NCBI RefSeq assembly: GCF_000550785.1
Contig: NZ_CP004350.1
Span: 1,344,009 to 1,408,008 of the forward strand
Source: Corynebacterium casei LMG S-19264
Lineage (GTDB): Bacteria > Actinomycetota > Actinomycetes > Mycobacteriales > Mycobacteriaceae
Length of the DNA stretch: 64,000 bases
Direction of reading: 5' to 3'
Within the stretch, counting starts at the first letter, position 1. Every line of letters starts with the position of its first letter. The notes under the pieces were generated by a model, which saw nothing but the letters and a program-made list of their open reading frames with translations, did no database searches and was not told the origin of the DNA. This document shows positions 16,398 through 51,118 of the stretch, one piece after another. A program made the position numbers and the translations under genes.

Positions 16398-17018
16398 TTA
16401 GTCGCCGACGCCGCGGGCTTGCAGTGCTTCGCCGATGGAGCGGGCGCGGCGAATGGAGCGAATCAGAACCGGGGTGCCAAAAGCTGCGAAGGAAAAGCCA
16501 GCGCCACGGGCTTTGCGGGCATCTAAGACTTCACCGACAGTGGCGAACATCAGGGGGATAAGCCGGATGGTCAGAGACATCGCGAGGGTCACGGTATCGA
16601 CGGGGAAACCAAATCGCTCCAGTGGAGCAAGGGAGGTTTCAACCGATTCCATGATGTCATCGACCGTGGAGGTTAAGGTGAGCAAGAAAGCCACCAAGAT
16701 GGCAGAGAAGATGGACAGGAACATCGCCAGGGCATAGTCCAAGTCCCGTGCCCACCATTGGAAACCGGCGAGCGGCACCAAGATGATGAGCGGTGGCCAC
16801 AACTGTGAGAACGCCACGCGCGGAGGGATCTGCGCGAGAAAGTACAGTGATGCTGCAATCGCGCATACGATGAGACCGCGAACCGGAGTAGTAGACAATA
16901 TGGAGCTGGTGATGATGAAGACGAAGATAAACAGCAGCTTCCAGCTCGGGCGCATCCGGTGGATGATGGTGTCTTTATCAACATAGACAGCCAGGGGGAT
17001 GTTCTTCGTCTTCATCAC
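16398..17018 (-). CDS. bioN: ECF transporter transmembrane (T) component BioN
   Basis: 206-residue EcfT-type scaffold linking the biotin S-component to the ATPase. It has about five hydrophobic segments. Two C-terminal Ala-Arg-Gly motifs, DARKARGAG and EALQARG, near residues 167 and 200, are the coupling motifs that touch the ATPase. The start overlaps the bioM stop by 4 bases (ATGA), so translation is coupled. It is shorter than group-II EcfT proteins (about 260) but normal for the dedicated BioN type. Confidence 0.92.
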   Translation of the reverse strand: MMKTKNIPLAVYVDKDTIIHRMRPSWKLLFIFVFIITSSILSTTPVRGLIVCAIAASLYFLAQIPPRVAFSQLWPPLIILVPLAGFQWWARDLDYALAMFLSIFSAILVAFLLTLTSTVDDIMESVETSLAPLERFGFPVDTVTLAMSLTIRLIPLMFATVGEVLDARKARGAGFSFAAFGTPVLIRSIRRARSIGEALQARGVGD

Positions 17019-43706: not shown

Positions 43707-44414
43707 TTAAATCTTGCGGATTACAGAGACAACCTTGCCCATAATCTTGGCGTCATCACCTGGAATAGGTGCAAATGCCTCATTGTGGGGAAGTAGCCAC
43801 ACGCCACTGGAGTCCTGGTGGAATTCCTTGACTGTGGCTTCCTCATTGTCCAGGAGTGCCGCGACGAAGTCGCCGGATTCCGCGGTGGGCTGGGAACGGA
43901 TAATTACCCAGTCGCCGTCAAGGATGGCTGCGTCCTTCATGGATTCGCCAACGACCTTGAGCATGTAGAGCTCGCCCTTGCCCACAATCTCATCGGGGAG
44001 AGGGTAGTAGGAGTCCACATTCTCTTCTGCCGTAATCGGAGCACCCGCAGCAATACGACCGACAACCGGGATGTAGCTAACGCCTGCTGCACCTTCCGGA
44101 AGGGTGGCGTCAATCGGAGCCTCTGCGGTGCTCTTGCGTCCTGGCTTCGGCTCATCATCCATTGCAAACTGGCGAAGATCCACAGCGCGTGGCTTGTTTG
44201 GATCTCGACGAAGGAAGCCCTTCTGCTCCAGCTGGTTCAGCTGGTAAGCAACGGAAGAGGTGGACTGAAGTCCAACCGCGTCACCGATTTCGCGAATGCT
44301 TGGCGGATAACCGCGCAAAACAACAGCATCTTTGATGACTTCGAGGATCCGGCGCTGTCGCGGCGACAGCTCGGAAATATCTGGACGGGGAGTAACTCCT
44401 CGTGGTTTGGCCAT
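43707..44414 (-). CDS. lexA: SOS repressor LexA
   Basis: 235 residues. The N-terminal winged helix-turn-helix covers [42 protein letters not shown] (about 18-60). The cleavage bond is Ala-Gly in GRIAAGAPI (about residue 120). The catalytic Ser is in [10 protein letters not shown] (about 157) and the Lys in EATVKEFH (about 194). ATG 44414 is preceded by AAGGAG and gives a protein of the usual length; an ATG 12 codons upstream is less likely. It is divergent from divS, an arrangement shared with C. glutamicum. Confidence 0.96.
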
Positions 44415-44604
44415 TTTCTTAGCTCCTTGGACATCTAAGCCTGCATCCAAATTGCGTGATGCTTTAGCGGCTTAGTTCGACTGAACTTACGTCAAGTGGA
44501 CTGCGGGTAATCGGTGAAAGTGAAATAGCTATAAAAGCGATACCGTATTTGTATCACGTTTTTCACCGATGTTCGACTATTTCCGGCTATTTCTGGACAA
44601 ACTT

Positions 44605-44655
44605 TCGAAATCCTGTTATAAATCGAACATACAAAGAAAATCGAACAGTTGCGCT
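44605..44655. promoter_or_regulatory. Candidate LexA-site cluster between lexA and divS-like gene
   Basis: TTTCGAAA (44604-44610 region), TCGAACA (44623-44629) and TCGAACA (44641-44647) resemble SOS half-sites, the last two 18 bp apart. None is a full palindrome, so LexA binding is likely but weaker evidence than at recA. Confidence 0.45.
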
Positions 44656-44719
44656 AATGGCAAGCTTCAGTGTCTGGATAGATGGATAGTGTTACATGCG
44701 TGACCGAAAGGAAATTACT

Positions 44720-45106
44720 ATGGCTATCGCTCTTAACCGCGGAAACGCAAATTCAGCACGTACTTCTACCTTCTCCCCGCATCGCGTGAATCGTGTTCCA
44801 TCCGTATCTGTGTGGGAACCTTCACTTCGGGAACCGCGTGTAAACAATGTTCGCACTTTAGGGACCGCCCCTAGAACAGTGCAGCGAAACACTTTCGAAC
44901 ATCATGCTTCAAATCCAGAATTATCTACTCCCGAAAATGGTGGACGCGCTGCAAGTGTTCGAAGCAACATCGCGCTGGGCGCAGTATTTGGCGCTGCCGT
45001 ATTCATGGGCACTCTTTTCGCCGGATTCAATACATCAGAAGAGCCAATGTCGCAGGTTACCTCCGTTAGCAGCTCGCCTGCGGCCGGTGAGGTTATTGCT
45101 CGATAA
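44720..45106 (+). CDS. DivS-like SOS cell-division suppressor (putative)
   Basis: 128-residue small protein. A basic, polar N-terminal ~80 residues precede one membrane segment (SNIALGAVFGAAVFMGTLFAGF, about 84-105) and a short Ser/Pro-rich outside tail. No catalytic motif. ATG 44720 has GAAAGGAAA upstream, and the in-frame ATG at 44696 does not. The assignment rests on position: divergent from lexA and followed by nrdR, where C. glutamicum has divS, an SOS-induced division inhibitor. Sequence support is limited to the one-membrane-span layout and size. Confidence 0.5.
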   Translation: MAIALNRGNANSARTSTFSPHRVNRVPSVSVWEPSLREPRVNNVRTLGTAPRTVQRNTFEHHASNPELSTPENGGRAASVRSNIALGAVFGAAVFMGTLFAGFNTSEEPMSQVTSVSSSPAAGEVIAR

Positions 45107-45184
45107 GGTGAGCGACAAAGCATTCGGATTTGTGCAACATCGCTGGCCATAGCGGCACATTGGGCAGTCTGAATAAGTTTTCTT

Positions 45185-45274
45185 AAGGGCAGTACACTAG
45201 TTCTAGTTAAGTATTCATCACGCTTTAATTTGGCGTGAGAATCCCACAGTTAGGACCTTTGGTGTACTGCCCTT
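45185..45274 (+). promoter_or_regulatory. 13-bp inverted repeat spanning the nrdR leader and start codon
   Basis: AAGGGCAGTACAC (45185-45197) is exactly complementary to GTGTACTGCCCTT (45262-45274), whose first three bases are the nrdR start. The 64-bp interval includes ACACTAGTTCTAGTTA (45194-45209), a near-palindrome similar in layout to an NrdR box, a -10-like TAAGTAT and the AGGA ribosome site. It is either an RNA hairpin over the start codon or a pair of protein sites. Confidence 0.5.
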
Positions 45275-45717
45275 TTTGCCATTACGAACAATCCCGTGTG
45301 ATCGACTCCCGCGTTATCGATGCAGGCTCAGCTATACGCCGTCGCCGTGAGTGCGCCTCATGCCAGGGACGTTTCACCACCATTGAAAAAGCCATCCTCT
45401 TGGTGGTCAAGCGTAATGGTTTGGCTGAACCGTTTAGCCGTGACAAACTGATTCGCGGTGTTCGTCGAGCTTGCCAGGGGCGCGACGTCTCCGATGATGC
45501 TTTGAAGCGCCTAGCGCAGGAGGTAGAGGAGCGGGTGCGTAGTCACGGCAGCTCCCAGGTCAACGCTAATGATGTCGGCCTAGCCATCCTGGAGCCGCTC
45601 CGCGACTTGGATGAGGTTGCGTATTTGCGCTTTGCTTCCGTCTACAAGTCTTTCGATAGCGCGGATGACTTCGAGTCTGAGATTCGCCTCATGCGTCGCC
45701 GCGAACGCGACGTTTGA
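45262..45717 (+). CDS. nrdR: Transcriptional repressor NrdR
   Basis: 151-residue nucleotide-sensing repressor of ribonucleotide reductase genes. The N-terminal zinc ribbon begins [20 protein letters not shown] with a second Cys pair in [10 protein letters not shown]. The ATP-cone starts at about residue 48 ([26 protein letters not shown]). GTG 45262 is chosen because NrdR proteins start one residue before the YCPFC motif; AGGA lies about 6 bases upstream. It is 6 bp from the convergent hrpA stop. Autoregulation is possible through the upstream repeat. Confidence 0.95.
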
Positions 45718-51064: not shown

Positions 51065-51118
51065 AGCGCAAAGCAACGGCCCAACCACATCATCCTGGTT
51101 GGGCCGTTGCTTTGCGCT
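51065..51118. terminator. Bidirectional hairpin, 23-bp perfect stem
   Basis: Arms at 51065-51087 and 51096-51118 are exact complements with an 8-nt loop CATCATCC. It lies between convergent genes (membrane protein and oxyR) and has no T-run on the plus side. Confidence 0.75.

Follow-up and report, generated by a model that had tools for sequence, protein, structure and literature searches.

We analyzed a 64,000-nt stretch of the Corynebacterium casei chromosome (the window) and found that the start of nrdR is one arm of a perfect inverted repeat. As the first-pass annotation had described, the 13-nt sequence AAGGGCAGTACAC at 45185-45197 fully complements GTGTACTGCCCTT at 45262-45274, the two lie 64 nt apart, and the 3′ arm is the GTG start of nrdR with the codons VYCP. 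We consider it about an even bet (probability roughly 0.5) that this repeat is an RNA element that would silence nrdR on read-through mRNA, i.e., an insulator of the T4 gene e type. In the proposed mechanism, the -10 of the nrdR promoter would lie within the 5′ arm, so that RNA beginning at about 45205 would leave the Shine-Dalgarno sequence and start codon free. RNA from an upstream, LexA-linked promoter of a divS-like gene would instead carry the 5′ strand and form a 22-pair hairpin over the Shine-Dalgarno sequence, the GTG and the first codons, and nrdR would be poorly translated from it. DNA damage would then raise divS-nrdR RNA, and NrdR, which represses ribonucleotide reductase genes, would not follow.

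The Corynebacterium genome comprises 3.13 Mb in three contigs, with a chromosome of 3,113,488 bp, and the window has a G+C content of 55%. The gene order is lexA (43707-44450, minus strand; Pfam LexA_DNA_bind and Peptidase_S24), its divergent neighbor the divS-like gene (44720-45106, plus strand), nrdR (45262-45717, plus strand; Pfam Zn_ribbon_NrdR, 1.7e-20, and ATP-cone, 2.4e-18) and a large helicase gene on the minus strand, whose hrpA label comes from reading the sequence by eye. NrdR opens at the GTG at 45262 and reads VYCPFC. The 128-aa divS-like protein had no Pfam match, and we presume its identity from its position between lexA and nrdR. A tblastn match to it with 33-61% identity lies upstream of nrdR at all eight hairpin-type loci examined (L003-L007, L031, L321, and L320), and the match is weak (27%, E 0.036) at the G212 locus (L276/L325), which we take to be that of C. 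glutamicum. When the corynebacterial SOS box was compared with the lexA-divS stretch, the best matches, at 44605 and 44641, had three mismatches; the best LexA-box matches within 1.5 kb upstream of nrdR at 11 loci agreed at 12-14 of 16 positions. Several TTCGA/TCGAA half-sites are visible by eye between lexA and the divS-like gene (44570-44660).

Nine perfect inverted repeats of at least 13 nt with loops of up to 100 nt occur in the window, vs. a mean of 0.03 per window expected by chance (first-order Markov resampling, 30 runs). Seven of them have terminator-like loops of 4-20 nt, and only the nrdR repeat (64 nt) and a GAAGA-rich pair at 16913-17017 (75 nt) have loops longer than 20 nt. At 51065-51118, a 23-nt inverted repeat without mismatches and with a loop of 8 nt (AGCGCAAAGCAACGGCCCAACCA) is terminator-like but has no T run behind it.

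The 13-bp repeat is part of a longer predicted fold of 22 pairs, in which 45185-45206 pairs with 45250-45274. In the predicted stem, 15 uninterrupted pairs (45185-45199 with 45260-45274) are followed by a 3-nt bulge and a further seven pairs (45200-45206 with 45250-45256); the 5′ strand of the stem comprises the perfect arm and an extension at 45198-45206, and its 3′ strand at 45260-45274 covers the GTG and the codons VYCP. The Shine-Dalgarno region, TTAGGAC at 45250-45256, is predicted to pair with 45200-45206 in the long RNA, and the 22-pair fold would close both it and the GTG. This contradicts the earlier suggestion that the ribosome site sits in an open loop. The loop holds an inner hairpin at 45213-45242 (11 pairs, a one-base bulge and the core TCACGCT/GGCGTGA), located between the promoter and the Shine-Dalgarno sequence and predicted in read-through and own-promoter RNA alike. 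For RNA spanning 45180-45300 the predicted folding energy is -44.7 kcal/mol (z -6.0), a value reached by none of 200 shuffles, vs. a fold z of only -0.67 for RNA from 45204 onward, and the stem is retained when the 721 nt beginning at 44680 are folded to minimum energy. Freeing positions -13 to +13 is predicted to cost 25-26 kcal/mol in RNA beginning at 45185 or earlier and 5.6-5.8 kcal/mol in RNA beginning at 45202 or later. By energy, z score and opening cost, the prediction that any RNA with both arms folds into a hairpin over the start codon has good support. When upstream-to-start pairing was compared across 51 gene starts of the window, nrdR was the most extreme, with none of 300 shuffles as good.

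Within the 5′ arm lies the plus-strand hexamer TACACT (45193-45198), the proposed sigma-A-type -10 of nrdR; across much of the genus, inspection by eye shows a TANACT, TAGAAT or TAGGAT hexamer ahead of nrdR. An account of C. glutamicum promoters gives TANANT as the published -10 and TAnnnT, with a weak -35, as that study's own finding (PMC3890552). A transcript from the TACACT promoter is predicted to start at about 45205 and to lack the 5′ arm. Since this start lies past the arm, the hairpin would be possible only in RNA from further upstream, read-through from the divS-like gene being the simplest source. The alternative -10 that had been proposed between the arms (TAAGTAT) was not seen in the relatives compared by eye. 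Translational control by a start-covering hairpin, as put forward by the first-pass annotation, survives in part: the predicted fold agrees with it, but the ordinary transcript should lack the 5′ arm, and the hairpin would matter for divS read-through RNA, a case outside that annotation. A terminator scan covering loops of 3-8 nt found no terminator-like site between the divS-like gene and nrdR. The same scan did list a weak terminator-like site where the divS-like gene ends (45073-45091), which might limit read-through into nrdR. In C. glutamicum, antisense transcription at cg2112 (nrdR) has been reported (PMC4046766).

The proposed arrangement resembles that of T4 gene e (lysozyme) and I-TevI, in which a hairpin in early read-through RNA controls translation (PMC3014915, PMC2988022). 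In these, the long RNA initiated upstream hides the Shine-Dalgarno sequence and/or start codon, and the DNA encoding the 5′ strand contains a late promoter, whose RNA is without that strand and translatable. The phage system, however, uses a late promoter and timing, whereas nrdR has a sigma-A-type candidate beside an SOS-linked gene; moreover, the nrdR product represses ribonucleotide reductase genes, and silencing in the present case is a prediction. If the silencing reading is true, it would explain how a repressor gene can stand behind a damage-induced gene without being co-induced, and it would provide a bacterial chromosomal counterpart to the T4 lysozyme switch. It would also offer a rule that can be searched genome-wide, namely a promoter inside an anti-start arm, and a caution for RNA-seq, as nrdR RNA could climb in the SOS response with NrdR protein staying flat. 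In IS10 and IS50, a hairpin that hides the start protects the transposase genes against transcription entering from outside; their read-through RNA likewise folds over the start region and own-promoter RNA does not, although these are the ends of mobile elements and nrdR is a core chromosomal regulator. Closer to hand, Jochmann et al. are reported to have described in 2009 that divS-nrdR of C. glutamicum is an operon whose promoter use differs between SOS conditions and normal growth. Gene order is shared, and one unit with different promoter use in the two states would be too, but the presumed C. glutamicum locus lacks such a hairpin. Among the matches listed, no title or abstract opening indicated a published nrdR hairpin.

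The upstream arm recurs in relatives. The sequence GGGCAGTA(C/G)ACT is present in at least eight Corynebacterium species at four separate places on a tree of LexA, NrdR, and HrpA (76 loci, 805 columns). The pattern GGGCAGTANACT-N50..80-TGTWYTGYCC was matched by 7 of 242 genus genomes, and G143, in which the gap is shorter than the pattern allows, is the eighth arm-bearing genome. At seven of the eight arm loci the arm reads exactly GGGCAGTACACT; among these, GTGTACTGCCC is present at five, and the other two (L007 and L164) have one G-U pair. GGGCAG is identical at the four tree places (the casei-like group, G143, G036/G051, and G011), species without the arm sit between them, and other relatives differ in the hexamer preceding the -10 (by eye). 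The simplest account of this distribution would be that an ancestral arm survived in some lines and disappeared from others. The complementarity is preserved in the close relatives G150 and G178 but is largely gone in a third, L005 (G110), which has GGGCAGTAGAC and TTGTTCTGCCC (TAGAC/TTGTTC), three core pairs lost and an opening cost of 12.1 (rank 58 of 185). Together with a predicted start beyond 45197, this loss counts in part against hairpin control as it was originally conceived.

Opening costs in read-through RNA were ranked over 185 loci, which derive from 191 of the 241 nrdR loci found, six having been dropped with an unrecognized start pattern. The seven exact-arm loci and L157 occupy ranks 1-8, the median of all 185 being 10.3, and the presumed C. 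glutamicum locus has a cost of 8.5 (rank 143). L157, which was picked out by the duplex screen, i.e., chosen for its hairpin, carries a variant arm, GGGCGCTACACT, extended as TACACTGGGAC/GTCCCAGTGTA and again with a -10-like hexamer inside. A high opening cost is not in itself diagnostic, since costs reach 21.3 in the outgroup set, where the start was recognized in 79 of 80 loci: the 71 non-Corynebacterium loci have a median of 14.0, and the eight Corynebacterium loci included with them range from 6.9 to 14.3.

The main rival, which we judge unlikely but weigh seriously, is coincidence: the 5′ arm would be a conserved promoter (extended -10, GGGCAGTACACT), the 3′ arm would be conserved VYCP coding sequence, and their complementarity would have no function. 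It draws strength from the recurrence of -10-like hexamers in relatives without pairing, from the reverse complement of GTGTA, which is already -10-like, and from L005, where both arms are altered and the pairing breaks but the -10 (TAGACT) and the reading frame stay. Against this, GGGCAG lies outside the known -10, other relatives whose -10 is good do not retain it (by eye), several lineages extend the pairing past the core with different letters, eight loci are the opening-cost extremes among 185, and a 13-nt match is rare by chance.

The covariation signal is weak, as coincidence would have it. Swapping 5′ and 3′ strands among seven species gave pairing as good in 191 of 5040 permutations, and in 330 of 5040 once the cores had been equalized; in consensus fold A1 (seven sequences, with L164 left out), a double change that preserves pairing is seen in 1 of 13 pairs, and covariation contributes a slightly unfavorable term (+0.31). 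Shuffling of the inner flanks yielded single p-values of 0.006-0.49 (0.16 for the window) and a combined p of 0.045 for four lineages without L157, or 0.022 with G051 replacing G036; inclusion of L157, itself picked for its hairpin, gave 0.0037. Compared with 135 foreign flanks, the native flank ranks unremarkably in the window (73), G150 (105), and G110 (108), at 18-20 in G036, G051, and G143, third in G137 and first in G011. Selection on the pairing is suggested by these sequence comparisons. Across the genus, duplex energy vs. 300 shuffles reached p < 0.01 at 13 of 185 nrdR loci and p < 0.05 at 26; the remaining 159, including the presumed C. glutamicum locus, have no pairing at p < 0.05. 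Among control starts, p < 0.01 was reached by 2 of 51 window genes (one being nrdR, leaving 1 of 50 others) and by 0 of 23 nrdH starts. By Fisher's test, the nrdR loci do not significantly exceed the control genes (13/185 vs. 1/73, p 0.12), and the loci are related to one another.

A different hairpin over the Shine-Dalgarno sequence and nrdR start is found in the L008/L009 group (12 loci aligned; L259 and relatives), where CRGTGGTC pairs with GACCACYG from about -78 to +12 of nrdR. The -10 of this group is TAAACT at -38, and the 5′ arm of the hairpin lies upstream of it. Pair 27-90 appears as A-U, G-U, and G-C variants across the 12 loci, and apparent mismatches in the stem can be read as a bulge. 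In the shuffle test, L013, L260, and L268 were not significant singly; three members of the group have opening costs of 19.0, 13.0, and 14.6. This second hairpin is what selection for read-through silence, rather than for sequence, might give. On a fuller reading, which we find possible and offer tentatively, the -10/spacer DNA would double as the anti-start strand, so that SOS mRNA would yield DivS without extra NrdR and dNTP synthesis would stay open; the element would go back to the ancestor of a large Corynebacterium clade, having persisted in several lineages and been swapped for the other hairpin in the L008/L009 group. Single-species pairings between upstream sequence and the nrdR start were also seen in L271, L223, L156, L167, L240, and L286 (shuffle p 0.007-0.03). 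L271 ranks 9 of 185 for opening cost, and L223 has a -10-like TACATT inside its arm and a read-through opening cost that is not high (12.1).

The same hairpin could terminate or attenuate divS read-through at the nrdR start by means of the T run after the stem (CTGCCCTTTTTG), as its GC-containing stem is followed by five T in the window and by four T in six relatives. We regard this as improbable: with 64 nt separating the perfect arms and 43 nt enclosed by the extended stem, an intrinsic terminator would have an unusually long loop, and the T run comes from a Phe codon, which is TTT at 119 of 185 loci. The terminator scan did not list the hairpin either, its coverage being loops of 3-8 nt only. 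Slighter still is the chance that nrdR RNA normally begins upstream of 45185 and that the hairpin is a switch operated by a protein, a ligand or temperature. TAAGTT at 45174-45179 could act as a -10 just ahead of the arm, but by eye no such hexamer was seen there in G150, G178, or G110, and some 25 kcal/mol would be a very deep trap for a regulated switch. Rfam searches produced no match at gathering score in the window and none at E up to 1 in 45050-45350, which also speaks against a switch of a known family.

Last, the arms have been considered as DNA sites, for NrdR autoregulation or for another regulator, possibly through looping. A matrix was built from 46 NrdR boxes in 23 nrdH promoter pairs (23 of 30 loci); in the genus, these boxes are paired 16-mers, 31-32 nt apart, with scores of at least 10.6 and a median of 19.1. 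The internal near-palindrome ACACTAGTTCTAGTTA, thought earlier to resemble NrdR boxes, is the most NrdR-like 16-mer in the region, yet it scores 2.5 bits, a value equaled or exceeded at 21 of 63985 window positions, has no partner box and is replaced in L006, L007, and L031; we rejected it as an NrdR box. Between the 5′ arm and the start codon there are 55, 75, 76, 81, or 91 nt, depending on the species, and looping is unlikely because this spacing varies without a common helical phase. With so poor a box match and no fixed phase, the DNA-site explanation is very improbable, and the suggestion that the repeats act in this way is disfavored. Upstream of nrdE, where the 1.5 kb of L127, L129, L131, L138, L139, and L151 hold no such box pair and that of L135 a weaker one, NrdR box pairs are present in most of loci L122-L151, often with the spacer GTTGC.
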